Part shown: piece by piece, positions 1,994 through 9,129 of the stretch | Numbering within the stretch: the stretch's first letter is position 1 | Layout of the letters: each line of letters opens with the position of its first letter | DNA from: Rhabdothermincola sediminis | Lineage (GTDB): Bacteria; Actinomycetota; Acidimicrobiia; Acidimicrobiales; Acidimicrobilacustridaceae | Assembly (NCBI RefSeq): GCF_014805525.1 | Contig: NZ_JACFSZ010000021.1 | Span: 1-53,698 of the forward strand | Direction: 5' to 3' | DNA length: 53,698 bases | Translations under genes and position numbers: made by a program | Notes under the pieces: model-generated | The model's database searches: none | The model's input: the letters and a program-made list of their open reading frames with translations, nothing else | Told to the model about the DNA's origin: nothing

Positions 1994-2944
1994 GTGGCGG
2001 CCGTTCGCGTCCTCAGCCATCTGGGTTCCTCCGGCGTGTTCGCACTGCCTCCGGACCTCGCCGGCGAGGTGGAGCTGGTGCCCGTGCCCACCCGGGGCGA
2101 CCTCGACCCCGCGCTGCGGGGGGAGGTCCTCGTCACCCTGCCCTGGGAAGTCGAGACGCTCGCCGAGACGCTCCGGAGAGGGGTGCGGTGGGTGCACGTC
2201 ACCGGGACCGGGGTGGACGCCTTCCCGCTCCAGCTGATCGGTGAGGGTGTGGTGCTGACCAACTCCCGTGGTGCCAGCGCGGTGCCGATCTCCGAGTGGG
2301 TCCTCGCCACGATGCTGGCGTTCGAGAAGCGGCTGCCGGAGTCGTGGGAGACCCGTTCCCCCGAGGATTGGCGGCGGGGGCAGCTCCGCGATCTCGGCAC
2401 CCTGGCCGGCAAGCGGCTCGCCCTCGTCGGCCTGGGTGACATCGGCTCGGCGACCGCCACGCGGGCCTTGGCGTTCGACATGCAGGTGCGGGCCTTGCGT
2501 CGCCGGGACCGGCCGTCACCCGTGCCCGAAGTGGAGACGGTCCGCTCGCTGGCGGCATTGCTCGACGGCGCGGATCACGTCGTGCTCGCCGCGCCACTGA
2601 CCCCCGAGACCCGAGGCCTCATCGGGCGCGATGCGTTCGGGGCGATGAAGCCCGGGGTGCACCTGGTGAACGTGGCCCGGGGGGCATTGGTCGACCAGGA
2701 CGCGCTGCGAGCGGCGCTCGATGACGGGACGGTGTCGATGGCGTCGCTCGACGCGGTCGACCCTGAGCCGTTGCCGGAGGGGCACTGGCTCTACACCCAC
2801 TCCAAGGTGCGCTTGTCCCCCCACCTGTCCTGGTCCGCGCCGGGAGCGCTCGAGCTGCTGGCCCAGATGTTCATCGAGAACCTCCGGCGCTTCGTGGCCG
2901 GCGAGCCGCTCCAGCACGTGGTCGATCTCGACGCCGGATACTGA
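1994..2944 (+). CDS. D-isomer-specific 2-hydroxyacid dehydrogenase
   Basis: NAD(P)-dependent oxidoreductase that interconverts 2-hydroxy and 2-keto acids; 316 residues, normal for the family. The Rossmann fingerprint GLGDIG lies near residue 148. The catalytic Arg is in NVARGALVD, the Glu in DPEPLPEGH and the His in SPHLSWSAP, all in the conserved order. The GTG at 1994 is chosen because MAAVRVLSHLG begins directly with the first beta strand. It is divergent from marR and its stop overlaps the next start by one base (TGATG). The substrate cannot be read from the sequence; glyoxylate/hydroxypyruvate or phosphoglycerate-like acids are possible. Confidence 0.88.
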   Translation: MAAVRVLSHLGSSGVFALPPDLAGEVELVPVPTRGDLDPALRGEVLVTLPWEVETLAETLRRGVRWVHVTGTGVDAFPLQLIGEGVVLTNSRGASAVPISEWVLATMLAFEKRLPESWETRSPEDWRRGQLRDLGTLAGKRLALVGLGDIGSATATRALAFDMQVRALRRRDRPSPVPEVETVRSLAALLDGADHVVLAAPLTPETRGLIGRDAFGAMKPGVHLVNVARGALVDQDALRAALDDGTVSMASLDAVDPEPLPEGHWLYTHSKVRLSPHLSWSAPGALELLAQMFIENLRRFVAGEPLQHVVDLDAGY

Positions 2945-3855
2945 TGGGTGTCCCGCCCGCCTTGGCTCCGGGCGACGAGGGCTGGCACCCGCCGGGTCCG
3001 GAGCCGCGGTGGAGCGAATGGTGGTACTTCGACTTCGCCTCCCCCGACGGGTCCGTCGGAGGGTACGTGCGGGTCGGTCGCTATCCGAACCTCGGGGTCG
3101 TGTGGTACTGGGCGTGCCTGGCCGGTCCCCGTCGACCGGCGGTGATGGTCATCGACCACGAGGTCCGCCCACCCGTGCGGGAGGGCTCGCTCGAATTGCG
3201 GGCCAGTGGTCTGTGGGCGGACCACAACTGCGAGACCCCCTTCGAGCACTGGAGCGTCGGGCTCGAAGCGTCCGCCGTGAGCCTCGACGACCCGCTGGAT
3301 GCCTATCGGGGCTCGCTCGGCCAACCGGTTCCCCTCGGCTTCGACCTGGAGTGGGAGACCGACGGGGAGGTCTTCGCCCACCCGCCGCCCCTCGACGGCT
3401 ACGAGGTGCCGTGCCGGGTGCACGGTGAGGTGCTCGTCGGGCGCGAGCGCCTCGAGCTCGACGGGGTGGGTCAGCGGAACCACGCCTGGGGCGGGGACGA
3501 CCGGTGGGCGGGGACCTGGTGCTGGACCGCCTTCCACGTCGAGGGCGGCAGTCACCACCTGCTCGAGGTGGCCCCGGGCTCATCGCGGGCCATCGGCTAT
3601 CGCCAGCTTCCCGGTTCAGGCCCGGTGGAGGTGCTCGAGGGCTCGGTGGCGTGGACCGAAGGGCGGGAGCGGCTGCCCCGGCAGATCGATCTCACGGCGG
3701 CCGGCGAGCGCATCGGGGTCACCCCGCTGGTGTGGGCGCCGGTCCTCGTCGAGGGGCCCGGCGGCCGGCGGACCCGCCTCCCGCGGGCCCTGGCCCGCTT
3801 CGAGGGAGCCGCCGGCCCTGGTGTGGGGTGGGTCGAGGTCAACCAGCCGGAGTGA
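2944..3855 (+). CDS. uncharacterised lipocalin/CrtC-like protein
   Basis: A 303-residue soluble protein without signal peptide or membrane segment. The N-terminus has a Trp/Tyr-rich stretch (PRWSEWWYFDF) and the middle has GVGQRNHAWGGDDRW. Both resemble proteins of the hydroxyneurosporene-hydratase-like (CrtC/AttH) double-lipocalin group and related actinobacterial DUF7064/7065 families. I recognise the style rather than a specific member, so the function is open; a hydrophobic ligand or lipid is likely from the fold. It starts within the stop codon of the 2-hydroxyacid dehydrogenase gene, implying coexpression and perhaps a shared pathway. Confidence 0.6.
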   Translation: MGVPPALAPGDEGWHPPGPEPRWSEWWYFDFASPDGSVGGYVRVGRYPNLGVVWYWACLAGPRRPAVMVIDHEVRPPVREGSLELRASGLWADHNCETPFEHWSVGLEASAVSLDDPLDAYRGSLGQPVPLGFDLEWETDGEVFAHPPPLDGYEVPCRVHGEVLVGRERLELDGVGQRNHAWGGDDRWAGTWCWTAFHVEGGSHHLLEVAPGSSRAIGYRQLPGSGPVEVLEGSVAWTEGRERLPRQIDLTAAGERIGVTPLVWAPVLVEGPGGRRTRLPRALARFEGAAGPGVGWVEVNQPE

Positions 3856-3884
3856 GCGGCCGGCGAGCGCGGATCAGGCCGCTC
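3854..3884. terminator. hairpin between convergent genes
   Basis: GAGCGGCC (3854-3861) and GGCCGCTC (3877-3884) form a perfect 8-bp stem with a 15-base loop. It spans the stop codons of the convergent lipocalin-like and DUF368 genes. No U-tract follows, which is common in high-GC actinobacteria. It could serve both strands. Confidence 0.45.
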
Positions 3885-4764
3885 GCTCGGCGGCGCGCTC
3901 CACACGGAACGCCACCGCAGCGAAGCCCGCCACCACGACGAAACCGGTCACCGCCAGCAGGATCGGCACCACCACATCGTCCTGGGGCATGGTCATGGTG
4001 GTCCCCGCGGTCCCCTCGGGCCACGGCCACAGCACTCGCAGCGAGCCGAGCATCAGGCCGATGAGCCCCGCCACCACCGTGTCGTGGTGGTGGTGCAGGG
4101 CCCAGTGCAGCACCTGCGAGAACAGCATGAGCCCGATCGCGCAGCCGGTGGCGAACACCGCGACGGTGGCGAGCTGGCGGTCGTTCACCGCCCCGAGGAC
4201 CAGGTCGTACATGCCGAGCATGAGGAGGATGAACGAGCCGGAGATCCCCGGGAGGATCATGGCGCAGATGGCGATCGCGCCGGCCAGGAAGAAGGCCCAC
4301 AGCGGCGGATCGGCTACCCCGGAGGAGCGGAAGCCGAGCAGGAAGAACGCGGCCACGCCGACGAGGAGGAGGACGACGGCGCGCACGCCGTCCCATTGCT
4401 TGACCCGCGGGAGTGCCGCGGCGACCGAGCCGGCGACCAGGCCGAAGAACAACCCGGCCATGCGGACCGGTTCCGTGTCGAGCAGGTGCTCGATGGCACG
4501 GGCCAGCGAAAGCAGCGCCAGCAGGATGCCCGCTCCCAGCGGGAGGATGAACAGCCAGCGGATCTCACGCAACCGGTCCCGGGTGCCGACCAGGTCGAGC
4601 TTCAGGAGGTGACCTGCCGTTGCGGCGAAGAGGCTGACCGTGTCGATGAGCTCCTCGTAGATACCGGTGACCAGGGCGACGGTCCCGCCCGAGACGCCTG
4701 GGACGATGTCGGCGCTGCCCATGAGGAAGCCGCGCGCGAAGACGGAAGCAGGCTTGTGGGGCAC
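3874..4764 (-). CDS. DUF368 membrane protein, putative undecaprenyl-phosphate translocase (PopT-like)
   Basis: A polytopic membrane protein of 296 residues with about eight helices. The family signature MGSADIVPGVSGGTVALVTGIYE lies near the N-terminus and the partner loop MILPGISGSFILLMLG in the middle; these two re-entrant-like PGxSG motifs define DUF368. The family was recently identified as a translocase that returns undecaprenyl phosphate to the inner leaflet for peptidoglycan and glycan synthesis. GTG at 4764 is chosen because the protein then starts just before the conserved region; upstream in-frame starts would overlap the divergent DedA gene. The DedA gene, whose family has the same proposed role, starts 67 bp away on the other strand. 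Confidence 0.86.
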   Translation of the reverse strand: MPHKPASVFARGFLMGSADIVPGVSGGTVALVTGIYEELIDTVSLFAATAGHLLKLDLVGTRDRLREIRWLFILPLGAGILLALLSLARAIEHLLDTEPVRMAGLFFGLVAGSVAAALPRVKQWDGVRAVVLLLVGVAAFFLLGFRSSGVADPPLWAFFLAGAIAICAMILPGISGSFILLMLGMYDLVLGAVNDRQLATVAVFATGCAIGLMLFSQVLHWALHHHHDTVVAGLIGLMLGSLRVLWPWPEGTAGTTMTMPQDDVVVPILLAVTGFVVVAGFAAVAFRVERAAERAA

Positions 4765-4831
4765 GGCTGTGATGGTACGGCAACGGGGGGCGTGACCCGC
4801 AACCACGCGCGAGCGCCGGTACGCTTCGCCG

Positions 4832-5494
4832 GTGCTCGTTGTCTCCACGTTGATCCTCGGTCTCGGCGTCGACCCTCAGCGCCTCCTGCACGCCGTCGGG
4901 CTGATCGGCCTGCTGCTCGCGGTGTTCGCCGAGTCCGGCATGATGGTGGGCTTCTTCCTCCCCGGCGACTCGCTGTTGTTCGCCGCCGGCCTGCTCACCT
5001 ATCGGGGTGACCTGGCAGCCGGTCAGGTGTGGCTGGTGACGGTGGGCTGCGTCGTCGCGGCGGTGGTGGGCGACCAGGTGGGCTACGGGGTCGGGCGCAA
5101 GCTCGGTCCCAGACTCGCGGACCGGGAGCGCTCGCGGTTCCCCAAGGACGAGCACCTCGCGAAGGCGCAGGCGTTCTTCGACCACCACGGCCCGAAGGCG
5201 ATCGCGCTCTCGAGGTTCGTGCCGATCGTGCGCACGTTCTGCCCCGTCGTGGCCGGGGTGAGCCGCATGGACCACCGGGTCTTCACCCGGTGGAACGTGA
5301 TCGGTGGGGTGGTGTGGGCGGTCGGGCTGATCCAGCTCGGGTACTGGCTGGGACGGATCGCCCCAGGAATCGGCGACCGCATGGAGCTGGTGGTCGTGGC
5401 GATCGTGGTCTTCTCGCTCATCCCCATCGGGGTGGAGCTGATCCGCTCGCACCCGGAGCGGATCAGCTCACCTACGGGAAAACCTGGCCGATGA
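4832..5494 (+). CDS. DedA-family membrane protein (UptA-like)
   Basis: DedA/SNARE-associated family protein of 220 residues. The hallmark [19 protein letters not shown] covers the first re-entrant loop, and the second is [23 protein letters not shown] with the conserved Arg residues, followed by a Gly-rich helix ([18 protein letters not shown]). DedA proteins transport lipid phosphates; some members (UptA) recycle undecaprenyl phosphate. The start is GTG at 4832. Its 3' end overlaps the convergent sdhB by 23 bp. It sits divergently from a DUF368 gene, the other undecaprenyl-phosphate translocase family, which supports a lipid-carrier role here. Confidence 0.9.
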
Positions 5495-6239
5495 GCTTGC
5501 GGTTCTTCAGCTTCGCCTTGAGGTAGTCGCGGTTCATCAAGGCGATGAAGTCGATGGGGATCTCCTTCGGGCAGGCTTCCTGGCATTCGCCGTAGTTCGT
5601 ACAGGAACCGAAGTACTGCTCCATGGTTTCGACCATGTCCTCGGTGCGCTGCCACCGCTCCGCTTGACCCTGGGGGAGCAGGTTGAGGTGGGCCAACTTG
5701 GCGGAGGTGAACAACTGTGCTGCTCCGTTGGGGCAGGCGGCGACGCACGCCCCGCAACCGATGCAGGCAGCGGCGTCCATGGCCGTGTCGGCTGCCGGCT
5801 TGGGCACCGGGATCTGGTTGCCGTCGGGAGCCGCACCCGTGTTCGCCGTGATGAACCCGCCCGCGGCGACAATGGCGTCGAAAGCGGACCGGTCGACCAT
5901 CAGGTCCTTGATGACCGGGAAGGCCGCGGCTCGCCAGGGCTCGATCACGATCTCATCCCCGTCGCGGAAGCTGCGCATGTGGAGCTGGCAGGTGGCCGTG
6001 CCGCGCATCGGGCCGTGAGCCTGGCCGTTGATCATCACTCCACAGGTCCCGCAGATCCCTTCCCGGCAGTCGCTGTCGAAGGTGATCGGCTCGCGACCGG
6101 ACTCGATCAGCCGCTCGTTCACCACGTCGAGCATCTCGAGGAACGACATCTCCTCCTTCACGTCGTCGGCCTCGTAGGTCTCGAAGCGGCCCTCGGCCCG
6201 GGGGCCGTCCTGGCGCCACACCTTGAGCGTGAGCTTCAT
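5472..6239 (-). CDS. sdhB: succinate dehydrogenase/fumarate reductase iron-sulfur subunit
   Basis: Electron-transfer subunit of complex II, 255 residues. The N-terminal plant-type ferredoxin domain carries the [2Fe-2S] ligands in [11 protein letters not shown] plus a later Cys in TATCQLH. The C-terminal helical domain binds [4Fe-4S] through [14 protein letters not shown] and [3Fe-4S] through [18 protein letters not shown]. It is the last gene of sdhC-sdhA-sdhB; the gap to sdhA is 13 bp. The 3' end runs 23 bp into the convergent dedA gene, so the two transcripts are antisense there. Confidence 0.96.
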
Positions 6240-6252
6240 CTCGGTCCTCGTC

Positions 6253-8178
<1,926 letters not shown>

Positions 8179-8198
8179 TCGATGCGGTCTCCTCGGGC

Positions 8199-8972
8199 TC
8201 AGCCGACGACGCCGGTGAGCACGGCGATCGGGAACGAGATGTTGGGCCCCACCACCAGGATCGTGAAGCCCGCCGCGGCAGCTCGCCGCAACGGGTTGTG
8301 GCGGGGATTGAAGCGCGGACTCATCGACCCCATGGTCTGGAACAGGCTCCAGACGCCGTGGTACAGGTGCACGCCGAGAGCCAGGTTGGCCAGCACGTAG
8401 AAGAGCGCCACCGGCCAGCGTTCGAACGACGCCACCACGTTCGCGTACACGTCACCGGCCGTGAAGTCGGGGTTGGCCCAGCCGGTGGTGAGGTCGGCGA
8501 GGTGGAACAGCACGAAGAGGGCGACGATCACACCGCTCCAGCGCATGGTCCGGGCTGCCCAGCTGGCGGCGATGTAGTCGCGAGGTGAGGCATACCGCTG
8601 CGGGCGAGCTCGACGGTTGAGCATCGTGAGCGAGTAGGCCGCGTGGATGTGGTATCCGACGGCCACGATCAGCACGATCCGCATGCCCCACAGTGCGACA
8701 TGCTCCGGAAGGATCGGTACCAGCAGCCCGGTTCGGAGCCACTCGGCGTACTCGCGGTAGTGGGTCGGGCCGAGGTACATCTTCAGGTTGCCGACCATGT
8801 GGGCGAACACGAAGCCCATCAGCACCAGGCCGGTGATGGCCATCACCCACTTCTTGCCCACCGCGGTCCGGTAGAAGCCCGCCATGGGGAGCCGCCCTCG
8901 CCGAATCGGTGTCCGGATCGGGGGGGACGTGACGTTCGGGGTGGTAGCAGGGGCTTGTCGGGTTGCGGTCAC
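8199..8972 (-). CDS. sdhC: succinate dehydrogenase cytochrome b subunit
   Basis: Membrane anchor of complex II of the single-subunit, five-helix type (b558-like), which normally carries two haems and reduces menaquinone. Histidines in helices, for example in [27 protein letters not shown] and GVHLYHGVW, are candidate haem ligands. The GTG at 8972 has GGAGG seven bases upstream and gives 257 residues with a 29-residue soluble leader. The ATG at 8885 lacks as good a site, though it would fit the fold exactly. It is first in the sdhCAB operon; the promoter should lie in the 157-bp gap 8973-9129. Confidence 0.93.
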
Positions 8973-9129
8973 GAACGTGCCTCCACGTGCAGCTCCTCCG
9001 ATCGGCGTGGGTTGCGGCGCGACACCGGGTGCGAGAGGCCCGAACCTCACCGGGATCCGGCCCGTGACGACGCTACCCATGACGGGTCGTCAGGTGCTAG
9101 CTGGCAGCGGCCGCCCGGGTTGGGGCGGG

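Follow-up and report, generated by a model that had tools for sequence, protein, structure and literature searches.

The 53,698-nt contig of Rhabdothermincola sediminis analysed here (the window) contains two intact genes, one of the DUF368 family and one of the DedA family, which lie back to back across a 67-bp gap, as the initial annotation had described (Table 1). The pair is positioned between sdhCAB on one side, where the 3′ end of the DedA gene overlaps sdhB over 23 bp, and DUF7065 and 2-hydroxyacid dehydrogenase (2HADH) genes on the other. sdhB, and often one of the latter two genes, recur as flanks through the order Acidimicrobiales, and we denote the position beside sdhB as the slot. 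The DUF7065/DUF7064 gene recurs near sdhCAB across many families of the order. The window genome (G000) as a whole contains one DUF368 gene, two DedA-family genes and one BacA/UppP gene.

Table 1 Features of the DUF368–DedA locus, in window coordinates
Feature	Position	Strand	Details
2HADH gene, flank in the window's family	1994..2944	+	profile match, synteny
DUF7065/DUF7064 gene, other flank, convergent with DUF368	2944..3855	+	profile match, synteny
DUF368 / PopT-type gene (PF04018, VCA0040-like, putative undecaprenyl-phosphate translocase)	3874..4764	-	GTG start, 296 aa, intact
Intergenic region, 67 bp, two putative back-to-back leaderless promoters	4765..4831	.	sequence reading
Putative -10 box TACCAT	4772..4777	-	7 nt before DUF368 GTG; weak -35 TTGCGG, 19-nt spacer
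Putative -10 box TACGCT	4820..4825	+	6 nt before DedA GTG; no clear -35
DedA gene, COG0586/UptA-like (PF09335)	4832..5494	+	GTG start, 220 aa, intact
sdhC-sdhA-sdhB, one flank of the slot	5472..9080	-	sdhB 5472-6239, sdhA 6253-8178, sdhC 8199-9080; profile matches, synteny

The DUF368 protein of the window contains a full-length domain matching PF04018 (262.3 bits, profile positions 1–239 of 246), and its best NCBIfam match is PlprenPhTpVIBCH, the Vibrio cholerae-type polyprenyl-phosphate transporter (248 bits). In both respects it resembles PopT (VCA0040 and SAOUHSC_00846; PF04018). It differs from PopT in scoring below the equivalog level (248 and 112 bits, where each cut-off requires 400), for which reason we call it a member of the family and not an equivalog, and in belonging to a gene that in many Acidimicrobiales lies less than 3 kb from sdhB. 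On the basis of these matches, the protein is probably an undecaprenyl-phosphate (UndP) translocase. A longer, mechanically called reading frame that extends to 4848 is unlikely to be the gene, because profile matches begin at residues 8–9 and the start position recurs in relatives: among the 28 slot loci that contain the GxxDxVPGVSG motif, 10 (the window being one of them) have a start codon 15 codons ahead of it, and in 6 others the start is displaced by one codon. Literature searches on DUF368 in Acidimicrobiia or beside succinate dehydrogenase found nothing apparently relevant, and searches for solved structures found none for DUF368 and none that was convincing for DedA.

The DedA protein of the window matches PF09335 with 75.7 bits (cut-off 33.9) and, among NCBIfam models, PRK10847 DedA with 154.6 bits, below the equivalog cut-off. 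The eight DedA-family proteins of Escherichia coli K-12 served as the reference for typing; the nearest of them is E. coli DedA (39% identity), with which the window protein groups, apart from ydjX and ydjZ (in two trees) and from yqaA (in the first comparison only). UndP-type DedAs are described as having two acidic residues at the first re-entrant tip (YghB E39 and D51) and two arginines at the second (R130 and R136) (PMC10127716), and the window DedA has E, D, R and R at the equivalent positions. It thus shares all four key residues with the UptA-type DedAs (COG0586; E. coli DedA, YghB and YqjA). In contrast to these, it is known here from its sequence, and its scores against the equivalog-level UptA models are 56.4 and 50.4 bits, under the cut-offs of 250 and 300, with only 56 bits to the Bacillus-type model. 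From residues and grouping, we classify it as UndP-type, COG0586-like rather than COG0398 or COG1238, and UndP would be its likely substrate.

Judged by their profile matches, both proteins are members of known families. The assignment of the pair to the PopT (DUF368) and UptA (DedA) families, made in the initial annotation, is supported by the PF04018 and PF09335 matches, the four residues and the grouping with E. coli DedA. Because the DedA is COG0586-like, carries the four residues and groups with the E. coli protein, it is also not placed in a clade with a different lipid substrate, the placement that had been named as damaging to this reading. The second DedA-family gene of the window genome (contig C23 27306-27614, L140) is divergent and carries not one of the four UndP residues. 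In 36 of 37 genomes of the window's family there is a weakly scoring DedA match, so this divergent type may be conserved with another substrate. The DedA of a further genome (G079) belongs to a different COG0586-like branch. DedAs were searched with an iterated profile, since a phmmer search with the window DedA as the sole query had overlooked distant members; weak DedA-like matches antisense to the DUF368 start (L069, L073, L150/L189 and L159; E about 5e-4) are probably due to chance similarity on the opposite strand and do not enter the counts.

To describe occupancy of the slot, each genome read in Acidimicrobiales was counted once, with a distance to sdhB of less than 3 kb. DUF368 alone occupies the slot in 27 genomes, which represent 14 families, and invariably shares the strand of sdhB; an UndP-type DedA alone occupies it in 17 genomes, of which 16 belong to the window's family (13 to one genus) and one (G181) to another family, f15. 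Both genes are present in the window genome and in G378. In G220 the slot holds DUF368 and a COG0398-like DedA in divergent order. The DedAs of the 17 DedA-only genomes, of the window and of G378, 19 in all, have E, D, R and R at the key positions. The far flank (DUF7065 or 2HADH) is found in all 17 DedA-only loci versus 12 of the 27 DUF368-only loci, so that in the remaining loci the slot is defined by sdhB alone, and alternation bounded by shared genes on both sides applies to part of the set. Left out of the count were six further genomes of the family with DedA beside 2HADH or DUF7065 and no sdhB in the fetched stretch, and two (G258 and G377) in which sdhB lies about 5 kb from DedA. As many loci were fetched for holding DUF368 or DedA, these counts are evidence of alternation rather than a measure of how often slots in general contain either gene. 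The unbiased figure comes from a sample of 99 genomes of the order: 37 contain DUF368, 36 of these have an sdhB match, and in 20 of the 36 DUF368 and sdhB share a strand and lie less than 3 kb apart. With the two genes so close, one may ask whether respiration and the recycling of the carrier lipid are linked, since the proton motive force is the proposed drive of transport by COG0586 DedAs (PMC10127716).

We followed the history of the slot in trees. In an SdhA+B+C tree of 52 genomes, family f18, whose slot holds DUF368, adjoins the window's family, f1 (support 87). Within f1, both genes occupy the slot in G378 and the window genome, DUF368 in G375, G380 and G382, and DedA in G384, G374, G373, G362 and G291; G079, G383 and G023 have neither gene in the slot, and their DUF368 genes lie elsewhere and group with those of other families. 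Read by eye on this tree, the most economical course within f1 has DedA arriving once by the time of the f1 ancestor, slot DUF368 being lost three times and slot DedA likewise three times, or four should G369, whose contig stops at this point, be without DedA. Across all 52 rows of the tree, slot DUF368 needs at least 12 changes and slot DedA, with three rows set aside, at least 5.

The slot DedAs, including that of the window, form one group (94/92). The slot DedA of G181 falls inside the DedAs of f1, beside the window's (85/77), so it is likely either that some transfer took place or that the gene is older and was lost more often. For DUF368, free tree searches placed the window gene outside the slot clade of its family, hinting at a recent foreign arrival. 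The AU tests do not support such an arrival: constraining the window DUF368 to the family's slot group improved on the free search by 2.35 log units (p-AU 0.54), and by 9.3 log units with f18 added (p-AU 0.65). These results permit vertical descent of the window DUF368, p values above 0.05 being no proof of a clade. Between G378 and the window, the strands of DUF368 and DedA are the same and the gene order is exchanged. Taken together, the trees are compatible with both genes having been present in the f1 ancestor and with either of them having been lost afterwards.

The two families also tend to exclude each other at the level of whole genomes. In a sample of 296 genomes of the class Acidimicrobiia (the class sample), DUF368 occurs in 136 and the DedA family in 161, with 34 genomes having both, 102 DUF368 only, 127 DedA only and 33 neither; the Fisher p of 2e-21 ignores phylogeny and counts DedAs of any type, and a single genus supplies 36 of the 102 DUF368-only genomes. 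Within the window's family the exclusion is weak: among 37 genomes (the family sample), a strongly scoring DedA is found in 6 of 11 with DUF368 versus 22 of 26 others (Fisher p 0.09), a count that includes the DedA of G079, of the different COG0586-like branch, and that of G381, which lies outside the slot. In a genus of another family (f29/g65; L004-L033), the genomes are small (0.6–1.1 Mb) and partly incomplete, and DUF368 is present in all 36 sampled and a DedA match in none of the 36, so DUF368 may be the sole UndP translocase there. Of the 33 genomes of the class with neither family, some may be incomplete and others may use a third translocase.

Comparable distributions have been reported from other bacteria. 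COG0586 DedAs are less common where a genome has DUF368 (PMC10127716). In Pseudomonas, DedA (PA4029) and DUF368 are reported to be mutually exclusive, and the DUF368 protein of P. stutzeri replaces PA4029 in P. aeruginosa (PMC12893004). The either-or distribution is the same as here, with functional replacement demonstrated in Pseudomonas; in contrast to the genome-level alternation described there, that in Acidimicrobiales concerns one chromosomal position, with two genomes that have both genes.

We propose that the slot downstream of sdhCAB in Acidimicrobiales holds UndP translocases that are interchangeable. DUF368, of the PopT type, would be the older occupant, joined by a COG0586 DedA of the UptA type by the time of the f1 ancestor. 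Most descendants would have kept one gene because either, on this proposal, can carry UndP to the cytoplasmic face, and the window genome and G378 would have kept both. The order exchanged relative to G378 might have arisen through tandem duplication of the pair and loss of the two outer copies, a guess that would account for the 67-bp divergent junction. Interchangeability is suggested by the many relatives that hold one gene or the other at the position where the window has both. This account, with an ancestral pair, loss of either gene and duplication as the route to the window order, is the simplest, and is favoured by the alternation at the slot (27, 17 and 2 genomes) and by trees compatible with an ancestral pair; we assign it a probability of roughly 0.6. 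The initial annotation had read the divergent pair as genomic support for a common function of the two families. Such support does exist, but it comes more from the shared slot beside sdhB than from the pair. In a stronger form, the slot could be regarded as a natural complementation experiment, in which an ancestor had both genes, loss occurred repeatedly, and the interchangeability of the two families in vivo can be read from gene position alone, with the window as one of two double-occupancy states found. We hold this form tentatively, at slightly worse than even odds.

As far as the literature searched showed, what is new here is a single locus that holds either of two unrelated translocase families, both of them in the window genome; a search on DedA, undecaprenyl and non-orthologous replacement found nothing. 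In the literature seen here, a handful of model bacteria have provided the demonstration that DedA and DUF368 do the same job. Their alternation at a single chromosomal site adds independent gene-order evidence, in an order known mostly from metagenomes, and the genomes with one, both or neither gene are now named, opening the way to asking which translocase is kept under which conditions.

One answer to that question is also the most probable of the alternatives to interchangeability. The two families might be complementary, DUF368 serving alkaline or sodium-rich conditions and DedA acidic ones, with each genome keeping what fits its habitat. Synthetic lethality and pH dependence have been reported in V. 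cholerae, and pH- and sodium-dependent contributions there and in Staphylococcus aureus (PMC9876793). These observations fit complementary roles, a reading that is compatible with the account preferred here, and we consider complementarity a reasonable possibility that is nonetheless the less probable reading.

The stretch beside sdhB could conceivably also take up inserted genes of any kind, its turnover having no functional meaning and DedA having come to lie there by chance. Unrelated genes do occur in this stretch in other genomes, replacing the translocases or beside them. In 14 loci, we scanned 20 open frames, some from both strands of one stretch, of which nine could be assigned to a Pfam family: multicopper oxidase, MgtE (two), PG_binding_1, acyl-CoA dehydrogenase, ACPS, P450, short-chain dehydrogenase and alpha/beta hydrolase. 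What speaks against chance is that DUF368 and DedA are frequent there and mostly occur singly (although many loci were fetched for holding one of them), that DedA-family genes of two subfamilies reached the slot, and that the two families exclude each other at the class level. Turnover without functional meaning is thus an unlikely explanation, and we retain interchangeable translocases as the preferred one.

Further UndP genes, such as phosphatases or flippases, were considered as the other occupants of the slot: none of the 20 frames matches PF04018, PF09335, BacA or PAP2, and eleven have no match. In two genomes (G023 and G263) the stretch beside sdhB is nearly empty. Genes for multicopper oxidase, MgtE or peptidoglycan-binding proteins lie between sdhB and DUF7065 in four loci (L227, L219, L222 and L242), which marks this stretch as one where gene content turns over frequently.

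Direct adjacency of the two genes is rare. Of the 136 DUF368 loci in the class sample, 129 were read: 98 with up to about 4 kb per side (less at contig ends), 30 of one genus (f29/g65) with shorter flanks, and the window; the other seven were those of six f29 genomes and of G259, whose match is below the family cut-off. DUF368 and DedA lie side by side in three of these genomes, the window, G106 (in tandem) and G220 (divergent), versus about 0.035 expected from random gene order by a rough estimate. The family sample added a fourth, G378, in which the genes are convergent. Among the matches listed, the best 80 DUF368 loci, from several phyla and read up to 6 kb on each side, include none with a DedA anywhere in the stretch read; sdhB is present in 8 of them, and some of these loci are from the same genomes as the class and family samples. 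The statement in the initial annotation that the two families are unlinked in most genomes therefore holds for the genomes sampled, and the survey of Acidimicrobiia that it had called for finds the adjacency in relatives but rarely, in four genomes including the window. The DedA of G220 is COG0398-like, with only R130 of the four UndP residues, and adjacency alone is accordingly weak evidence for UndP.

The initial annotation had seen in the divergent pair a sign of shared regulation, that is, a functional module with a co-regulated promoter region for lipid-carrier recycling. The 67-bp gap does contain putative -10 boxes facing both ways, and the DUF368–DedA order is also divergent in G220. 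However, G378, of the same family as the window, is convergent and G106 is tandem, and the DedA of G220 belongs to another subfamily, so the divergent layout is not conserved among relatives.

The boxes themselves lead in the same direction. No Shine–Dalgarno-like run is visible in the 67-bp gap, where the matches to -35 elements are poor, and TANNNT ending 5–8 nt upstream occurs at 0.19% of window positions, for a range chosen after the boxes had been seen. Such promoters have been described for leaderless genes of actinobacteria. All 19 DedA genes compared (many of them from one genus) have TANNNT no more than 16 nt from the aligned start, versus 0 of 23 other start-like codons listed alongside. 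Among the slot DUF368 genes, it lies 5–9 nt upstream in 17 of the 22 with a start candidate (from 27 slot loci with the motif) versus 3 of 730 internal start-like codons. The boxes, as putative promoters, follow the genes and not the divergent layout, recurring by each gene where DUF368 and DedA are not neighbours, and each gene is probably read from its own leaderless promoter. With a layout that is not conserved and an own -10 box for each gene in relatives with other layouts, shared regulation or a shared promoter finds no support, and we regard a divergent module as very improbable. The same TANNNT signal, 5–9 nt upstream, is present at 57 of 102 other DUF368 genes versus 36 of 2,124 internal start-like codons.
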